Source: Hysterangium stoloniferum (Eukaryota; Basidiomycota; Agaricomycetes; Hysterangiales; Hysterangiaceae). Taken from it: a DNA stretch of 64,000 bases. This document shows positions 32,854 through 62,303 of this stretch, piece by piece. Each line of letters begins with the position of its first letter. Positions within the stretch are counted from its first letter, which is position 1. A program made the position numbers and the translations under genes. The notes beneath the pieces were generated by a model. That model made no database searches. It was not told the origin of the DNA and saw only the letters and a list, made by a program, of their open reading frames with translations. Where the stretch lies: the NCBI GenBank assembly GCA_015178975.1, contig WHVD01000030.1, forward strand, positions 124,001 through 188,000, given 5' to 3'.

Positions 32854-32898
32854 GGGCCAAATCTGCCATAGTCCATTTCACCCCTTTCAGGCTGTCGG

Positions 32899-34307
32899 TG
32901 TAGAGAGTTCAATCGGAAAGAGACTAATATGGCAATAGTTTCAAGTCACGTCACAAGCACAAATTCTTATATATACTTTGGCACTCAAGACGACTTCTAC
33001 ACAGCCAAATCAGTTTCATCAAACAGACGACCAAAACTCCATCATGTTCAACACTGCATCGTCCTCCAAAGTAACCCTCAGTTCCTACTCGAAACCGACT
33101 CTTCACTCCCAAATAGAACTCCAGCCAATAATGTCTCGCTTCTCCTCATCCTCAGACATCATTTCCAAGCCCCTACCAGCCCACTCATGCTCCTCCAAGA
33201 AATACCATCGTTTCCTCCATCGACAAGGTATTCGACTCCCATATGCTCCAGACGATCCTGTCTTCATTCGTATAGAGCACTATGATGGCTCCTCTGAAAT
33301 CCTCCACTATCGATTCGATCGAGTGTTCCAGCAGGACTGTTCCCCACCGTCATCAGGAATCTATTACATGGCAACATTCACTCCAGTAGGAAATCACAGA
33401 GGACCCAAGTTATTTAGGACCCCGGTTCCAGAGGGAAGTCAAGTAGAGCCTCGTCGAGGTCGCCGTCGATTCGTGTTCCTTGCGTGGTTGTGGAGCCTAC
33501 TCACCACCTGGTTCTAAATGGTGATTGATTGTGTCCCCTCCTTATACTGCAAAACTAGGAACACAATATGTCCAATCTCGGTTCATCGATTGGTAATATT
33601 GTCAAGATTTCGAAATCAAGCATAGCATTTGAGGGTGACGCATTATCGTGGGATTCTTGTGTTTCTGACTCATGTCATCGATGTTTCATCAGCCATCACT
33701 TCTATTACTCCATCATCCCTATTGTCTGACTCACTTCCCCTATTGTTCTATTGTGTTTCCCCATTTATCCATATCACATGTCTGATCTCATCTTTTGTTT
33801 GTCATTCTCTTATTGTTCAGCGCAGCCTCCCCCTATTATTGTTCACAGCTTTACTAACACTCCTATTGTGATGACTCAGAGATGACTCACACCATATTGC
33901 ATCGTTATTGTGTCGTTGTTTGTAGATGTTTGATTTGACCTGTGCTCTCTCATGTATATAAGGGCCTCTCTTTTGCCCACTATTGAACAAGCAATTTCGT
34001 TGTATCTCATTTCGAAGCTCATTCTTAAGGACAATCTCTTAAGTCTTACTCTCAGTCTCACTCCTACGGCCAGTAAGGGATACTGTAGTGTCTCTTATTG
34101 TTGACGTTCTACACTCCTCGACATTAGGCTTACGTCAGCCTTTTGATATCATCTTCGTTTACGTCATCCAAAGGTCCGATCTCTAGCCTCTCGCTCCGAG
34201 TGTGTTTGGTTATAGACTGGTTTCAAGAACGACTGTGTCAGTGACCGTCATAAAGACTTGACCGTTGCGTGCAGGTTATTAGGTCTTTTCCTAGTAACGA
34301 ACTTACA
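32899..34307 (+). mobile_element. element E copy 1 (1409 bp), LTR-like, carries a small gene
   Basis: TGTAGAGAGTTCAATC to AACGAACTTACA, flanked by the 4-bp duplication tcgg (32895-32898, 34308-34311). The site is empty in Crypton copy 1. Inside lie a TATA-like CTTATATATAC at about 32969, an ORF starting at 33044, and a second TATA box (GTATATAAGGG) near 33954 followed by a conserved tail. A diverged copy starts at 53637. It could be a solo LTR whose U3 codes for a protein, or a small autonomous or non-autonomous unit of another type. Confidence 0.8.
33044..33517 (+). CDS. small protein of element E (157 aa), unknown
   Basis: The frame is also open upstream to 32978, but the Met at 33044 is preferred because it aligns with the start in element E copy 2 (53977). 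The two proteins share the opening pattern MxxTxSSSK. The N-terminal third is Ser-rich and likely disordered. The middle, FIRIEHYDGSSEILHYRFD, then GIYYMATFTP, aligns with VYIHPYEEDFRVYPYEFD and QIYYMAQ of copy 2. The C-terminal end is Arg-rich (PRRGRRRFVFLAWLW) and then hydrophobic. A TATA-like box lies about 70 bp upstream of the start. Protein-level conservation despite nucleotide divergence suggests it was selected. No known family recognised; it is not Gag, RT or integrase. Confidence 0.5.
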   Translation: MFNTASSSKVTLSSYSKPTLHSQIELQPIMSRFSSSSDIISKPLPAHSCSSKKYHRFLHRQGIRLPYAPDDPVFIRIEHYDGSSEILHYRFDRVFQQDCSPPSSGIYYMATFTPVGNHRGPKLFRTPVPEGSQVEPRRGRRRFVFLAWLWSLLTTWF

Positions 34308-34529
34308 TCGGGACACCCTCTTGGATTCTCTAATGTGCTTTCCAATGTAGAGCCTTTGACCAATCCCTTCAACCATTCCTTTCCACGCTGGACATATCCA
34401 TCATAGCCATTAGAGCTATTACTCACCATACCATGCTTTCTTTTCAAGGCTTGTTTGAGTCGTTCAGTATTGGCAACAGAGCTGCCTTTGACATTTTTTC
34501 TACAGTGCTTTCCTCATGGTGTTGAGCTA

Positions 34530-53111: not shown

Positions 53112-53375
53112 AAAGGGTATGCACATACTTCATCCCAGATGAAGGGATGCACACAGGCATATGTATCTCTTCATCCTGGACAAAGGGGTATGCACACACA
53201 TTTCTCTTCATCCCAGAAAAAGGGATATGCACACACAAATGTCTTTGTCCCAGATGAAGGGATGCACACAAGCATATCTCTTCCTCCTGGGAGAAGGGGT
53301 TTGCACAAGCACAGCTATTCATCCCAGAAGAAGGAGTATGCACAAGCATATCTCTTTGTCCCAGATGAAGGAGTG
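53112..53375. repeat. ~37-bp minisatellite, about 7 units
   Basis: Units of 36-41 bp built on CATCCCAGATGAAGGGATGC and ACACAAGCATATCTCTT. Both plus frames stay open across the array. The frame 53139-53528 continues 50 codons beyond it (HKHPYATFCLIPYYPHSCTI), so it might be a small repeat protein, but I see no further support. Confidence 0.85.
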
Positions 53376-53581: not shown

Positions 53582-53857
53582 TGTAAAAGAGTGAGACTCC
53601 CTACACTATGATCCAATAGGTGTGATGTCATGTGTTGTAGAGAGTCCAATTGGAAAGTGATGTAAGACTAGTATCTGCTGCAGGTGCAGTGTACTAATGG
53701 AGAACAATGTGATGTAAGCACAATAGGATGTGGACTACAATAGGATGTGGACTACAATAGGATGTGGACTACAATAGGATGTGGACTACAATGGAGTGGA
53801 TAACAATGGAGACTCAATATTACCAAATCACAGTGTAGGGAGTCTCACTCCCTTACA
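53582..53857. mobile_element. LTR-like element F (53661-53857) and an inverted F end
   Basis: F runs from TGTAAGACTAGTATCTGC to CTCACTCCCTTACA (197 bp) with the 4-bp duplication gtga (53657-53660, 53858-53861) inside element E copy 2. It holds four tandem 17-bp units GGATGTGGACTACAATA. About 37 bp at 53582 (TGTAAAAGAGTGAGACTCCC) are the reverse complement of the F end, so a truncated inverted F precedes E. Confidence 0.75.
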
Positions 53858-53976
53858 GTGACTTAAGACTATTCAAGGCCTGAGTCATGGTCAAAGTCAC
53901 ACTCTTGAATACATATATATTTTGGCACTAACCACAGCCTCTATCATCACACAGCCTAGTCAGTTTCATATTCATC

Positions 53977-54511
53977 ATGTCTAGCACCACTTCATCATCT
54001 AAACTCCTGATTTATAAGATTGCTCTAAGCTTCCTCCCATTGTCAACATCCCCCTTTTACGTTGAATGCCTAACAACTCAATCCCTTTCCTCCACATCAT
54101 CAACCACCTTCTTACCTGAACCAAAACCTGTCTACATTTCCAGACAGTATCTTTAAAGCCTTCACAAAGTTGAGATTTGACCTCCATTCATACAAGGAGA
54201 TATGTATTGTCTACATTCACCCATATGAAGAAGACTTTAGGGTCTATCCATATGAGTTTGATCAGCTTGTCCCATGTTATATTCCTACAGTAGACCAGCT
54301 TGTCCTCTGTTACATTCCTACAGCAGATCAGCCTGAGCAAATCTACTATATGGCACAGGAGTGGAGATCATCACAGTCCTTATATCATATTGTTAGGTCC
54401 CAGAAGACTTTGTATGGGAAAAGCCTTATTGGTTCAAACCTCCCGAGTTTGTCACACAGTTCAGGAGCATGTTCTTCTCCTGGTGTTGACTACTCTATGT
54501 TCAATGTATGA
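53977..54511 (+). pseudogene. element E gene, copy 2, frameshifted
   Basis: Starts MSSTTSSSKLL, matching MFNTASSSKVT of copy 1. The first frame stops near 54151. The homologous core then continues in the next frame: RFDLHSYKEICIVYIHPYEE, FRVYPYEFDQ, QIYYMAQEWRSSQS. A 39-bp segment (LVPCYIPTVDQ / LVLCYIPTADQ) is duplicated in tandem near 54260-54330. The C-terminal Arg-rich end of copy 1 is not conserved. Unknown function. Confidence 0.55.
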
Positions 54512-54577
54512 TATCTGATGAATGAGTGAATATGATGCTGTGTTGGGTCAAAGAGTGAGCAGGTTCTCTTTGTCTGT

Positions 54578-54920
54578 TGTTAAAATTGATACCCTAGAAT
54601 GTAGTTCTCAGTCTCATATATTCGTAGTATAACGGACTCTGCAATAGGTACCTAGAATGTAGTTCTAGTACATGCAAGATTAGTTAAGGAAATGGTCTAT
54701 TTGATAAATAGACGGCTCACCTCAGTCTTGTATATTCATAGTATAACGGACTGAGGCAAAGCTATAATTGACACCCAATATATATGTGTGTGACAGTCAA
54801 TGTGACTGTGATTAGTACAGAGGATGTGATGGAGGCAAAGGGAATATTCATTTGCCTGGTTTCAGATTCAGTCATCCTTAATGCATGTAGAAGCATATGT
54901 GGTGTCTCTCTTCCTCAACA
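54578..54920 (-). repeat. copia 3' LTR (343 bp)
   Basis: Direct repeat of 60930-61272. The solo LTR at 10394 is a relative. Confidence 0.93.
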
Positions 54921-54949
54921 CTCCTCCTCACTGCAGTACTCCTCTGTTA

Positions 54950-57804
54950 TTTGTGCCTATTTTAGGCCTAAAAATCCGCGAAGACATGTGAATTGTGGGC
55001 CCTCAAGTGCTTTTGTGAATATATCTGATAAGTTATCTTTGGTGTGGATGTATTTGAGTTTTAGTTCTCCAGATGCGGCACATTCTCGTAGAAAATGATA
55101 CTTAATATCTATATGTTTCACTCAATCATGTAGAAGTGGATCCTCTGAGAGGCAGATGGTGGCATTGTTATCGCAATGGATGGTTGTGGGTTTGTTGAAA
55201 GGTATGTTGATACCTCAAAGCACCGAACGTAGCCAGGAGTTTTCCTTTGCAGCAGAGAATGCTGCAATATATTCAGCTTCACATGATGATGCTGCGATGG
55301 TTTTTTGTTTGTGGGCGCTCCAGGATATGACACCTGAGCCTAGAGAGAATGTGAACCCCCCCCCACACTTCTATGGGTGTCGAGGCAATTTGCCCAATCA
55401 GAGTCGCTATGACCCAATAGAGTGACCGGGTCAGTGCCCCCCAAGTGTAGTTGTAGATTTCTGGTGCCTTTGAGATACCAGACAACCCGAATGGCAGCAG
55501 TCCAATGCTCATATGAGTAACAGTCAAGATATTGGGAGAGCTGTTGTACAGCATAGGATATGTCAGGGCGGGTGGAGATGGCAAGGTATAGAAGCGAGCC
55601 TACAAGTGAGCGGTAAGGGGGCTTAAAGAGGTAAGATTGGTCATCTGGAGGGAGGGAAGAATGGAGGGTGTGCCGTAGTTTTAGGCCTGGGGCCATAGGG
55701 ATAGACACTGGTGCAGAATCTGCTTGTCCAAACTGAGAGACTATGTGATCAATGAGGGCAGTCTGGGACAATTTGACAAGAGAATTTGGTCTGTCCCATT
55801 TGACAGCAATGCCAACGACAAAATTGACAGTACCGAGATCTGATATGCTCCAGGCTGACTTCATTTGTTGTTTGAAGCGGTCATTTTCAGCCTCAGTAGA
55901 GGCAATAGATAAGAAATAATCGACATGGACAGCCACAATGATGATTCCCGAAGTAGTCTTTTGGTAATAGATGCAGTCTTTTGGTAATAGATGCAGGGTT
56001 TACTGGGCAATGGAGTAAAACCCCAGTTGAGCATTTTCTCATGCATTGTGCGATTCCAAATGTGACCAGCTTGTTTCATACCATATGGTCCTCATATGAC
56101 CTTCCAGACCCACAATTCTTTTCCTGGCTCTTCGAAACCTTCAGGCTGGAACATGAATTGTGTTTCATTATCTGGAAGCAAGCCATATAAGAAAACTGTT
56201 TTGACATCGATTTGTTGGGCATCCCACCCTAAATGTGCTGCTAAGTGCAGTAAAATGTGCCAGGATTCCATACAAGCTGTAGGTGAAGTCGTCTTATCAT
56301 AGTCACATCCATATACTTGCTCGAAACCTTTAAAAATGAGCCTCGTTTTTGGACGATAAACTTCGCCAGCAGCATTCCGTTTTATATGAAAAATTGGCTT
56401 CCCTTTGTGCACCTTGGTACCGATGGGAATTTCTGAAGGTGGTACAAGTTCGTATACTCCCATCTCTTTCAGCAATTGAAGTTCCTCTTGATAGCTGGTG
56501 CACCATGCTTCCTTTTGGGGGGAGTTTTTTGTTTCATCCCATGTACGAGGGTCTGTTTCGTATGGTGTGGGGCCATTGGATACAGGTAAGCTTGAGATTG
56601 CAGTTAATTCATCGGCATCGGACTCTCCTGGGTGGCGAAAACTGTTGAGCATGGTGCACAGCTCATCCGCAACATTAACATTGGGGGGGTCACCATCGTG
56701 TAACTGCTGAATGTCTAGGTGGCATTGTTCCCGTTGGGCACAGACATGTGCAGCACTCACTATGGCATCCTGGACTGCGGTCTCCAGCCGTGAAGGATGA
56801 TTAGGGAGACGTGCTGCTATCCGAGTGGAGTGCCAAATGCCATCATTGGGAATAGGTGCTGGGGCATCATCTGGGATGGGAAATGGTGGAGGCACAGCAC
56901 CATTGGGTGGTAGAGGTGGAGGTGCAGGGTCGTTGGGTGGCAGGAGTGGAGGTGCAGTGTCGTTGGGTTGCGGTATAGGCATGATGGGTTCCAACTCCTC
57001 AATCTCTGAGGGTTGAAGGGGTGGCATTACTATCTGTGGGAGTGTGATGTTATGTGATGGTAAGGCAGACACGGTGGGTTGGGATATGCATAGGTGACCA
57101 TTGTGGCTTTCAAGGAATTTCACGTGGTAAGAAGTGTATATCTGCTTGGTTTTTGGGTCATAGCAGTGGTATGCCTTTGAATTTGGCTCATATCCAAGTA
57201 GGATACATTCTATTGATCGTTCATATATTTTTGGATTATTTTTGTTGAGTATGAGGACGAATGCCCGACAGCCAGCCTCTCGCAGGTAAGAGAGATCTGG
57301 TTTGCGACCATACCATAATTCCCAAGGGGTTCTCCCTTTTGATTGTTGGGTCGTTGTCTTACCATGTACATGAGCTGCAGTGAGGTAAAATTCTTCCCAA
57401 AATTGGGGAGGTAATCCTGCATATAAGTGGATAGTCTGAGCTTTGCCCATTAGTGTGCGGTGCATCCGCTCGATGCGGCCTATATGTGCTGAGGTATAAG
57501 GTGCAGTGAACTCATGTGTAGTACCTTGAGATTCTAGCCATTGGTGCATTTCATTGGTTTTTAATTCTCCATTGTCTGTCCTGTAAATGCCAACTTTCAA
57601 CCCAGTTTCCATTTCTCGTGCATGCTCCCAATGTTGGAGTGCACGAAAAGCATTGCTCTTGTTTTTAAGGGGGATAGACCATGGAAAGCTTGAGTAATCA
57701 TCTACGATATTCATTATATACAGTGATCCTGTGTGAGACACTACATCATTTGGTCCTGCCAGATCCACCCAGATTTTTCCACCTTATGCCCATCTCCCTG
57801 TGTT
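54950..57804 (-). pseudogene. copia integrase, reverse transcriptase and RNase H
   Basis: Integrase core from about 57780: VDLAGPND...VDDYSSF, RTDNGELKTNE, then IGRIERMHRTLMGKAQ (D, D, E all present), and a Pro-rich linker (PPLLPPNDPAPPPLPPNG). RT follows in the same frame (IFHIKRNAAGEVYRPKTRLI, QIDVKTVFLYG) until a frame break near 56092. The next frames hold MKQAGHIWNRTMHEKMLNWG, then AVHVDYFLSIAS where the YVDD-type box reads VDY, so the second Asp is lost. LGTVNFVVGI and PYRSLVGSLLYLAISTRPDI follow. RNase H (CEAEYIAAFSAAKE, IHTKDNLSDIFTKAL) lies in another frame near 55300-55000. The element cannot replicate on its own. Confidence 0.9.
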
Positions 57805-58423
57805 CACGTTTTTGGTACTGAGTTCTTGGTCTGTTTGCCAAGGATGCAAAAATCACATTTGGGAGGAGGCTGGCAGGTAGAATTTGGTGTACCTCTAATA
57901 ATGCCATTATTGATCATATCAGTGATGGATTGGTAGTTTGCATGACCTAGACAGCAGTGCCAAGTAGCAATATCTGGGGCACCATGGGTATAGAGTGCGT
58001 GTTCGACTGTGGCAGACTCGAGTGATAGTGAATATAAATCTTTGTGGGAGAGTAAAGAGCCACATGCAATGGTTGCACCTGAGTTGGCGGTCAGCCAGCA
58101 TGATGATGCATTAAAGTGTGCCACAATCTTGGAGTCCCTGGTAATACATCTAACTGAAATGAGATGGACCGAGGCAGTCGGGATATAAAGGACATCGCGA
58201 AGGGTAATATGTACTCCCCTACTGACGTGAATGTGGACATCACCCATGCCAATTGCTAATACATAGGATCCCCTGAGTCCTTTGACAGGTTGCGGTGGAA
58301 TGGGTCGCAAGGTTTTGAAGTCAAGGGGATCTGGTGTGACATGTATGCTTGCACAGTGGTGATCCAGGCTGGACTGCTCTTTCCCTATGAAGAAAAACAT
58401 TTATTTCAACTATCAAATTCTAA
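57805..58423 (-). pseudogene. copia protease end and GAG-pre-integrase domain
   Basis: Minus frame 58400-57804 reads ASIHVTPDPLDFKTLRPIPP, VLAIGMGDVHIHVSRGVHIT and LRDVLYIPTASVHLISV, then the zinc-binding HHCC segment WHCCLGHANYQSI...CDFCILGKQTK. The protease active site (normally DSGAS) reads DHHCAS, so it is lost. A TGA stop lies between this part and integrase at about 57804. Confidence 0.85.
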
Positions 58424-58431
58424 GCATGTAA

Positions 58432-59136
58432 ATGACCACTGGCAAGAACCAAATGCTGAGATCTTTGATGACCCCGAGTAGTTCAAAACCTGGTCAAAGA
58501 CCTGCAAGTCTGGAACCACCCCGTAACGTCACCATGAGGAAGTCTTCATTGACTTTTCAAAAACCAGCTCCTCCCAGAAGTTCTGTCGAAGCAGTAGCTG
58601 GACCGTCAATGGATTCCCCTCCAAGTCCACGAGAAGAACATCCGTCAACTGAGCAGTTGAACATCCCCGGAGCTAATGTTGAAACTACCCGTGCTCCTGA
58701 ACCCGTTCTCTCGTTCCCGCCTAAACAGGTCATCCTTAAGCAATTATTTAGGGGTCATATGATTTACGCCCAGCCCATCGACTTACAATGGGATGCGTAC
58801 TACGCCGACCGAATTTCTACGGATCAGGTTACTCCCTATTCTCTTATATCACCATCCTCATCCATACCCAAGCCTCCTCCAGCACCGCAGCCAATCTCAC
58901 CCCTCCGCACGTCACCTGACCCTCTCGTCACCTCCCACTCTACTCCGATGCCTTTGGTCCCTGCGGTGTCTAACATTCCCCTCACTTCCTTGACAACGCG
59001 GAGTCCACCACCCGCCTCTCCCTACTCCCCTTGCATTTCTCTGGGAAACCCCATTCAGCATCCTAACGATACATTAATGGATATTGATCACCCTATCCCG
59101 GAAGTTCTCGCAACACCTATGGAGGAAGTCCTCTAA
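58432..59136 (+). CDS. Pro/Ser/Thr-rich protein remnant in the LTR-C element (234 aa open)
   Basis: Open frame starting MTTGKNQMLRSLMTPSSSK and ending in IPEVLATPMEEVL. It is Pro-rich throughout except for a compact segment KQVILKQLFRGHMIYAQPID, LQWDAYYADR. Shorter frames follow, e.g. 59504-59785 with LRLAEDIERVELSMFRSLLV. By position before a polypurine tract and LTR it is retrotransposon sequence, perhaps an unusual gag or a third ORF. I cannot name the domain. Confidence 0.4.
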   Translation: MTTGKNQMLRSLMTPSSSKPGQRPASLEPPRNVTMRKSSLTFQKPAPPRSSVEAVAGPSMDSPPSPREEHPSTEQLNIPGANVETTRAPEPVLSFPPKQVILKQLFRGHMIYAQPIDLQWDAYYADRISTDQVTPYSLISPSSSIPKPPPAPQPISPLRTSPDPLVTSHSTPMPLVPAVSNIPLTSLTTRSPPPASPYSPCISLGNPIQHPNDTLMDIDHPIPEVLATPMEEVL

Positions 59137-60077
59137 GTGCCTCTCTCAGCCACAGACGTCTCCAAGGAACCCCCCCCCGGCAATGGAAGCCTTCAAGGAG
59201 CCTCCCCCCTTAAGCGAAAAAGCAAAAGGGAAATGAAGAACCGATACTCAGGCCGACGAGCCCCTTGTCATGGACCCCCCCCCGGCCCACCCCATTCGCA
59301 GCCTCCCGCTGCAGCCGTCCTCTCCCCTCCACTCTGAGGATACGGCTGGCCCCTCCCGTCCCTTCCAGTCAAGTTGGATGTGCGTGTCCATTAATTACCC
59401 CTCCGACATCTTCACTGTGGGATGCACATTAACGTGACTGGGACCAACCCTGCGGCACCCCCTTCTTAAAGGGCATATCCAGGGGTATAGTGGGTCTCTC
59501 ACATTGTCGGACCGCATGAGTGCATTTTATTTATGCGTCAACGACCCTAAGGAACAGCTGCGTTTAGCGGAGGATATCGAACGGGTGGAACTCTCCATGT
59601 TTCGGTCCTTACTTGTCAACTCTTCTTGTGTTCTTCCTGACCACACACCAACCCACTCTGCAGTGGACCTCGTTGACTTGTTGGAGCAACTGTTGCCGGA
59701 TTCGGACACCTCGAGAGGAATCCCCCCTGGGGGAGACATGAGCTCCACACCGCTCATCACTACCCCACCATCACTACACCCTTGACCCCCTCTCATTGCC
59801 CATATTACTGATGCTTCTGCTGATCGCGTTCGCGCCATAATTTGAATGTGCCAGAAGGCCTACGGTCGTTGGGTCTCGTCGATCCAAAAACTGGATGGGT
59901 TGACATCCGCCAATGACGCTTCAAGGCAGGAGGACATCGCTCTTTCCTTTCGTGCCAAGCATCTCGCCTGGGGCAACGCTATCCTACACCTTGGGGGTTC
60001 ATCGCAGGACGCATGGGGAGGAGTTCCAAGCGTCCTTCGACATCTTCTTTGACATAGCTCTTCGACCTGGGGGGCAC

Positions 60078-60671
60078 TGTGAGAGGTATGGTGAAATACA
60101 CTCAGGAAATATAGTTGGATGAGCTCTTACTATATTTCCTTTATTATTTCTATTTTCTCTCTTTTATTATATCTATAATTAGTTCGATGACCTATGTATG
60201 TGGTACATCGACTCTTGTGGGCGCACACACGCCAGACTTATGTATTCTAGCGCCCGTAGTTTAGAACTCAGACACTTTTTACACCGCAACCACGACTTAC
60301 CCAGACACCCATTAGTGTCCTGTAAGTTGTGATTGGTGTATCGTCTTGACCGTCACAGACAGGCTTTAGCTATCTACTCTATCAGAGTTTCGAACTGTAC
60401 CAGTCGAAACTCAATCCTTATCGCAACTCGCATGGACCACATCCACGCTATTCTATTATTCGACTCTCTAGTACTCTACTTTACTCTCGAGCAGTCATTC
60501 AGAATTGCACTTGACAGTCGATTCTACTTATTCGTTTAGCTCTCTACCTTATTCTAGATAGCTACTTCCTTCTACCATATTGAACTAAGTAGTCAATACA
60601 TCTTAGTGTCGTACCTAAACGGTCGATATTCTTCGTATATAGAACAGTTAGAACTTCCACTACTCTTCACA
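60078..60671 (+). repeat. LTR family C copy 2 (594 bp)
   Basis: TGTGAGAGGTATGGTG to ACTACTCTTCACA, close to C1 at 30073. It lacks about 37 bp present in C1 near its 3' end. No matching duplication (ggcac / gtcag). Confidence 0.9.
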
Positions 60672-60929
60672 GTCAGGGATGGGGACAGTGCCAAGGGCAT
60701 AGGAGATCAACCCTGTGATTGTAAGGTAGTGTTTTGCACTACGGTACCACTCCTTATAATTTCCTTCAGACTTGTCAAGTTTAGCCTCTGTGTAAGCAAG
60801 GGATGTCTGCAAGAGAGGGATAAGGGGGTGATTGCTGTAGTATTGGACATGTTGTAGACCAACAAAAAAAATGCCTCAAGACGCCAGAAAGGTAGGTGAT
60901 TTCAATAGGGACACAATAGGCCCATAACC
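60672..60929 (-). pseudogene. copia gag N-terminus and leader
   Basis: Minus strand next to the 5' LTR: GGTTATGGGCC, about 70 bp of leader, then a start MSNTTAITP and, after a small frame change, KLDKSEGNYKEWYRSAKHYL, TITGLISYALGTVPIPD. This is the first part of a copia Gag (UBN2/DUF4219-like). It is cut at PIPD by the LTR-C element. Confidence 0.78.
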
Positions 60930-61272
60930 TGTTAAAATTGATACCCTAGAATGTAGTTCTCAGTCTCATATATTCGTAGTATAACGGACTCTGCAATAGG
61001 TACCTAGAATGTAGTTCTAGTACATGCAAGATTAGTTAAGGAAATGGTCTATTTGATAAATAGACGGCTCACCTCAGTCTCGTATATTCGTAGTATCACG
61101 GACTGAGGCAAAGCTATAATTGACACCCAATATATATGTGTGTGACAGTCAATGTGACTGTGATTAGTACAGAGGATCTGATGGAGGCAAAGGGAATATT
61201 TGTTTGCCTGGTTTTGGATTCAGTCATCCTTAATGCATGTAGAAGCATATGCAATGTCTCTCTTCCTCAACA
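60930..61272 (-). repeat. copia 5' LTR (343 bp)
   Basis: Direct repeat of 54578-54920; about 97% identical by eye. Differences are mostly C/T and G/A changes. Confidence 0.93.
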
Positions 61273-62303
61273 TCTGTACCTTCACATCCTCATCTCATGC
61301 ATACCTGGAGCATGTCTAATTGTAGTTCTCTGTGATGAGATCCAGTATGAAACTTATTAACCCTACTATTCAACTGGCAATCACTGTGATTTGATGCCCT
61401 TTATCCTTACTCATGTCTATCATTTGACCTTTCTCTTACTCATCACAACTCACCATTTCCCCATTTATCTATAATTCTTTAGTAATTCTCTTCTGATGTT
61501 CTCACATGCCACACACATGCTTTATTTCTTCTTTCTTATTGGACAGTTGCCATATGGTTCAGTGCAGTCCCCCTCTATTATTCACAGCTTTACTAACATT
61601 CTTACTAATGATGACTCAGGTACAATGACTTGCACCATATCACATTGTTATTGTGTTGTCATTTGTACATGTTTGTTTTAATCTTTGTTCCCTCATATAT
61701 ATAAGGGTCTTTCTTTTGCTCACTGTTGAACAAGCAATTTCATTATACATATCTCATTTCAAAGCTCATTCTTAAGAACAGTCTCTTAAGTCTTATTCTT
61801 TCTCTTACTCATAATCTTACTCTGTGTTAGAATCCCTGTCATTTTAGACCCCTGCAACCTGTTTTTAGTTCCTATAACTCTCCATCATCCTACTATCAGT
61901 ATCCCACTCATGGTAGCACCACTTGCAATGCTCCTGACACTTGTTTTTGTATAGTTTGACCCTTTAGCTTTCTGTTCTGTGTCTGTCCCATTTTCTCCCC
62001 CATCACCATCTCCCTGTATATGTCTCACTTGCCACCTCAGACCTTTTTAGTATTGTTTAGTACTTTACATTTAGTCTCCCCACCTTGTCATTGACTTCGT
62101 ATGATCCATTTCACCCTTCCCTTCCTTGATTGGCCCTGCAGTCATCCGTCTCAATGTAGTATAAAGTTTTTTTCATGTATGCTACAATTCCTCAGTTCAA
62201 AAATCAACTTAGATTACCCTCTACTAGTTCTCAATCTCTTTCCTCCCTTCTCAATACTCTCAAAGACATTTTTGGCAAGCTGTGAACTCTTACCTTATGA
62301 CTC

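Follow-up and report, generated by a model that had tools for sequence, protein, structure and literature searches.

Accessory genes located in the U3 region of the long terminal repeat (LTR) are known from retroviruses, namely sag in MMTV, nef in lentiviruses and the bel genes in foamy viruses. In these cases an accessory frame lies within U3 and is present in both LTRs. Among retrotransposons, p22 of Ty1 is a copy-number factor that restrains new copies. Ty3/gypsy elements (Metaviridae) of the Agaricomycetes have the layout LTR - gag .. integrase - purine tract - LTR, an integrase with H2C2 and rve domains, and 4-bp target duplications. A fungal retrotransposon with a gene inside its LTR was not found in literature searches. 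The crapaud element of Podospora anserina has LTRs of 339-443 bp, of which the 5' half (U3) diverges among subfamilies and the 3' half is conserved, and it has left many solo LTRs; one figure legend lists gag and a pol-like frame as its two ORFs, and the cited portions of that report describe no ORF within the LTR (PMC10787394).

The window analysed here is a stretch of 64,000 nucleotides from Hysterangium stoloniferum (C224:124001-188000), and the genome searched comprised 111 Mb in 554 contigs. A unit on the forward strand at positions 32899-34307 of the window, designated Element E, was identified as an LTR that belongs to a Ty3/gypsy retrotransposon of ~9.0 kb. The bounds given in the first-pass annotation are exact: the unit starts with TGTAGAGAGTTC and ends with AACTTACA, has TGTA..TACA ends, and is bordered by the TCGG duplication (32895-32898 on the left, 34308-34311 on the right). 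The 157-aa ORF reported in the same annotation was found at 33044-33517 (forward strand), as were the two TATA boxes. TATA1 (TATATATA, 32968-32975, forward strand) is a candidate promoter of the small gene and precedes the ATG of the ORF by ~75 nt, while TATA2 (GTATATAAGG, 33954-33963, forward strand) is a candidate promoter of the genomic RNA. Both boxes, and an A at position -3 of the ORF, are kept in 33/33 copies read, and a pattern consisting of TATA1 plus its leader gave 187 matches in the genome versus 10 in the control. With its limit placed from TATA2, the U3 region would extend over about 1.09 kb and include two candidate transcription units. Like crapaud, Element E has a U3 that diverges among subfamilies, a conserved 3' part and many solo copies; unlike crapaud, it is a longer LTR and carries an ORF (PMC10787394).

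The parent element is seen on contig C547, where two LTR copies in the same orientation (85756-87163 and 93342-94749) with TGTA..TACA ends and differences at 2 alignment columns enclose an internal region, and the duplication GAGG is present at both outer sides. Direct LTRs with TG..CA ends, an internal region and a target duplication identify an LTR retrotransposon. Just after the 5' LTR, in the direction of the element, TATTGGCTGC represents a possible primer site, and ~280 nt beyond it is a Gag-like ORF with a CCHC motif recognised by eye (Pfam zf-CCHC at E 0.74 only). The last ORF before the purine tract AAAAGAAGGGTGGA, which directly precedes the 3' LTR, encodes an integrase (PF17921, H2C2, E 1.6e-18; PF00665, rve core, E 9.9e-8), relatives of which in the protein database include named proteins from Rhodonia placenta, Somion occarium, Phanerochaete sordida, Agrocybe and Mycena. 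An integrase beside the 3' LTR is the Ty3 order, and the class was assigned from the LTR layout and the integrase, the element having been read for ~1500 bases inside each LTR. Just inside the 5' copy, a stretch of 1500 bases matches a second locus (L012) at 99.1% identity, and 1500 bases inside the 3' copy match another locus (L010) at 99.7%. The same 157-aa ORF is present in both C547 LTRs (L023 and L028). In its layout, integrase domains and 4-bp duplications the element is like other Ty3/gypsy elements of the Agaricomycetes, from which it differs in having an additional conserved ORF, preceded by a separate TATA box, in each LTR and in a near-strict N-CG-N target. The first-pass annotation had asked whether paired or single copies exist; both do, the pair flanking gag..integrase on C547 and the single copies being solo LTRs.

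A genome search scored at least 40 copies of Element E at 97-100% identity from 283 candidates, and 39/40 of them span all 1409 positions. A 22-base pattern from the LTR 5' end, with up to 3 mismatches allowed, was matched 201 times (99 + 102) in the 111-Mb genome versus 7 times (4 + 3) in the control. Internal sequence of the gag side was found at nine loci (C547, C24, C356, C220, C529, C70, C553, C212 and C531) and that of the 3' side also at nine (C356, C547, C24, C529, C70, C553, C212, C508 and a fragment on C220), together with short hits at 70-79%, giving about ten loci for both sides combined. As ~200 LTR 5' ends contrast with about ten loci with internal sequence, most LTR copies are solo.

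The integrase of this family has a near-strict CpG-centred 4-bp target. An identical 4-bp duplication is present in 21 of the 30 loci with both flanks and has the form N-CG-N in 21/21. L005 and L027 have similar flanking repeats and may not be independent loci. Five further loci have N-CG-N on one side and one CpG-type change on the other, and the remaining 4/30 belong to elements that retain internal sequence. Among the dinucleotides in the flanks of the 30 loci, CG accounts for 2.9%, and the GAGG of the C547 element is an exception to the N-CG-N form. No near-strict CpG-centred target of an LTR element was found in literature searches.

Some copies have unusual arrangements. On C531, at about 140085-144061, a palindromic insertion consists of LTR and gag joined head-on to gag and LTR at 142031/142032, with gag reaching query positions 537 and 620 on the two sides; the structure resembles a product of foldback reverse transcription with a loop of 83 nt. 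Facing LTR ends are likewise seen at C124:805718 and 806617. The two LTR ORFs of the C24 element (837965 and 845547) are 91% and 97% identical to the window ORF, whereas the C547 pair is near-identical, and conversion or recombination between LTR subfamilies is a possible cause.

A second copy of Element E in the window, which the first-pass annotation placed at 53637, starts at 53636. It does share with Element E the 5' end (first 25 bp, 88%, E 0.003), the TATA1 leader (LTR 71-121, 74%, E 8e-5) and the 3' tail around TATA2 (33775-34066, forward strand, corresponding to LTR 877-1168; 78%, E 6e-63), but the tail is displaced to 61514-61813, as a copia-like element sits between. The 5' part of this copy (53636-54577, forward strand) is a sister-type LTR with a repeat insertion and an ORF remnant (53977-54508) that has an 11-codon tandem duplication and frameshifts, and the 3' part (61273-62069, forward strand) lies beyond the copia-like insertion, its end (TTTACA) having been set by eye and being tentative. 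The intervening element (54578-61272) has TGTT..AACA ends and a TCTGT duplication, both assigned by eye, and is putatively classed as copia-like from its ORFs; part of its end repeat (236 bp) recurs at about 30 other places with 87-99% identity. The repeat of ~200 bp in the U3 of the second copy (53656-53862) contains a 17-bp tandem repeat, is found at 97-98% on C112, C8 and C464, and is possibly a MITE. A 37-bp tandem array is located just left of the second copy (53128-53371).

Agreement of the two window ORFs at the protein level, on which the first-pass annotation had relied, was not confirmed in that form, and the similarity is marginal. The second ORF is frameshifted, and the score of 42 in a frameshift-tolerant comparison was equalled or beaten by 9/200 shuffled proteins and by 1/200 other stretches of the window. 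Homology of the window pair was therefore rejected as too weak to be proof of function, and it is the other genomic copies that support a conserved protein.

The ORF was read in 33 distinct copies, which comprise 30 loci of the nucleotide search (40 matches) and 3/20 loci of a translated search, the other 17 being the same places. Indels are absent from it in 33/33 copies, against six or seven indel sites in the LTR outside the ORF. An internal stop is lacking in 30/33, and the three stops are all CGA to TGA changes. Among 150 places scored in the translated search (from 255 candidates, some of them partial matches), 69 are stop-free, distributed by amino acid identity as 43/52 at 95-100%, 19/52 at 90-94%, 2/27 at 78-89% and 5/19 at 57-70%. 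Of the LTR ORFs that could be placed beside internal sequence, 9/13 are without a stop (two each on C547, C24 and C553, and one each on C356, C70 and C529), and 4/13 have stops (C212, 2; C220, 2; C531, 3 and 2).

Part of this pattern would be expected of an accidental ORF, from which nothing is made and whose frame is intact since most copies are young. The length of the ORF is unremarkable, as 157 aa or more was reached in 16/1000 dinucleotide shuffles of the LTR, and was dismissed as proof of a gene. Stops in young copies are uninformative, given that only 0.3-0.5 are expected in a neutral simulation at 97% identity, and the stop-free copies below 90% identity are few, as seen at 78-89%. On the other hand, the absence of ORF indels from all copies read speaks against an accident, as do five stop-free relatives at 59-68% identity. 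The 19 divergent places (57-70%) have a mean of 1.9 stops versus means of 3.0-4.6 in neutral simulations to 60-68% amino acid identity; since the zero-stop relatives may share one lineage, this deficit is support for a gene and not proof.

With all variants pooled, codon position 3 accounts for 22/53 variable sites and is barely enriched, and raw codon-position counts were rejected as evidence of selection. As this small enrichment is due to the dominance of CpG decay, CpG-type variants were separated from the others in 32 copies (L049, with a ragged end, was omitted), using the real copies L001, L008 and L025 as references. The non-CpG changes in the ORF were nonsynonymous and synonymous in ratios of 11:11, 8:11 and 6:11, respectively, at an expected nonsynonymous fraction of about 0.74, which corresponds to N/S ratios of 0.36, 0.26 and 0.20 (P 0.014, 0.004 and 0.001). 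The other two frames of the same stretch gave ratios of 0.93-1.72, and control stretches were flat except for one 3' U3 frame (ratio 0.41-0.53, P 0.04-0.12, with 0.04 for one reference). CpG-type changes in the ORF ranged from 22:11 to 26:12 (ratio 0.55-0.68, P 0.08-0.18). The 157-aa frame, the conservation of which had been proposed in the first-pass annotation, hence shows signs of purifying selection at non-CpG sites, in a small sample of 17-22 variants that is not tree-based and partly reference-dependent. One reading of these data is that constraint acts in the lineage that replicates, and that inserted copies then decay at CpG in a near-neutral way.

No homologue of the 157-aa protein was found outside the genome among 5.8 billion proteins (15 candidates with the single sequence and 222 with an alignment), as would also be the case for an accidental ORF; the same database does contain the fungal integrase relatives. 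Nevertheless, the excess of synonymous non-CpG changes is specific to the frame of the ORF, and an accidental origin is considered unlikely. Profile searches and structure prediction, proposed in the first-pass annotation, gave 0 Pfam families and no confident fold (pLDDT 43 for the whole model). The only match in the PDB (E 1.6) was to an unrelated protein and was taken as chance, no sequence relation to the MMTV Sag, Nef or Bel families was found in Pfam, the protein database or the PDB, and nothing in the window matched Rfam. The predicted protein is of 18 kDa and basic (pI 9.9). Its N-terminus is rich in Ser, strands are predicted for the core at low confidence, and the C-terminus has RRGRRR and a hydrophobic helix, which together form the sole part with ten-residue blocks averaging above 70 pLDDT.

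Element E is a solo Ty3/gypsy LTR, and the ORF in its U3 probably encodes an accessory protein of the element. The element at 32899-34307 has been cut down to a solo LTR by LTR-LTR recombination. TATA1 (32968) would give rise to a small mRNA for the 18-kDa basic protein, and TATA2 (33954) to the genomic RNA. Being inside the LTR, the accessory gene would be copied at each round of replication and would be useful to the replicating lineage, while solo LTRs would retain stand-alone copies that later decay by CpG mutation, and the protein would act in trans. Since decay of the copies at CpG resembles that of methylated DNA, our guess is that in regulating the element the protein most likely aids it against host silencing; alternatively, the C-terminal basic patch and hydrophobic helix could point to membrane association. 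Like the retroviral accessory genes, the frame lies within U3 and in both LTRs; unlike them, it lies wholly in U3, has its own TATA box, persists in solo LTRs and occurs in a fungal host.

The protein could instead be a product of solo LTRs that limits new copies in the manner of Ty1 p22, rather than one that helps the element. A separate TATA box and many solo gene copies would allow such control to depend on dose, and the loci with internal sequence are indeed few relative to the solo LTRs. However, solo LTRs arise anyway through recombination, and no relation of the protein to Gag was seen in a comparison that was not detailed, which makes a self-limiting role rather improbable.

Relatives of the ORF down to 57% amino acid identity were detected in the same genome by the translated search. 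Divergent ORFs lie 146-150 bp inside an exact LTR terminus on C27 (63%), C334 (65%) and C112 (81%), on C212 TATA1 and its leader precede the ORF of a relative (66% identity) by 51 nt, and the TATA2 tail adjoins diverged or second-type ORFs on C334, C101, C335 and C508. The ORF evolves much faster than the remainder of the element. For the two window copies, blastn gives no alignment of the ORF DNA, against 78% identity in the tail. On C212, the ORF with 66% amino acid identity is accompanied by 91% DNA identity in the integrase, while C508 has a second-type U3 beside an integrase at 84-85%, and on C532 integrase fragments at 70-75% accompany an ORF of the first type (60%). This pairing of ORF or U3 with integrase of unequal divergence, as seen in the match tables, suggests that U3 modules were exchanged between lineages. 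In crapaud, the histories of the LTR and of the internal sequence are similarly reported to differ (PMC10787394). A fuller picture would combine a selected accessory gene with its own promoter wholly in U3, dozens of open-frame cassettes left by LTR-LTR recombination, and a U3-gene module swapped between lineages independently of gag-pol; we hold it tentatively, at slightly less than an even chance.

Stop-free frames of 305-329 codons were found at C441:1414514, C525:210098, C221:20843 and C532:354183, with 59-61% identity to the ORF, and may belong to a younger subfamily, encode a longer protein or have been domesticated. If the ORF were a captured host gene, or had been taken over by the host, these relatives would be its longer or domesticated forms, and among the matches listed C221 and C441 are without an exact LTR terminus at the expected place. 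Such a host gene is very improbable, since the relatives on C27, C334 and C112 (63-81%) do lie at the usual distance inside an exact terminus and the search of the protein database gave no host homologue.

Of the two options considered in the first-pass annotation, an LTR with a U3 accessory protein agrees with the C547 pair and the purifying signal at non-CpG sites, and a new small-gene mobile unit is rejected, since on C547 the unit lies on both sides of gag..integrase and the single copies bear LTR-type duplications. Element E is therefore not the undescribed system it was suggested to be but the LTR of a known kind of element. What may be new is the apparently selected gene with its own promoter-like box wholly inside U3 of a fungal Ty3/gypsy retrotransposon, of which literature searches gave no example.

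If the ORF works, the retrotransposon could seed the genome with many stand-alone accessory genes by losing its body, and solo LTRs, usually seen as regulatory debris, would need annotation as potential genes. LTR-borne accessory genes, familiar from vertebrate retroviruses, would then extend to a fungal Ty3/gypsy element, and the family would offer a tractable test of the service of such a protein to a transposon. The integrase offers a second property open to testing, its near-strict CpG target.
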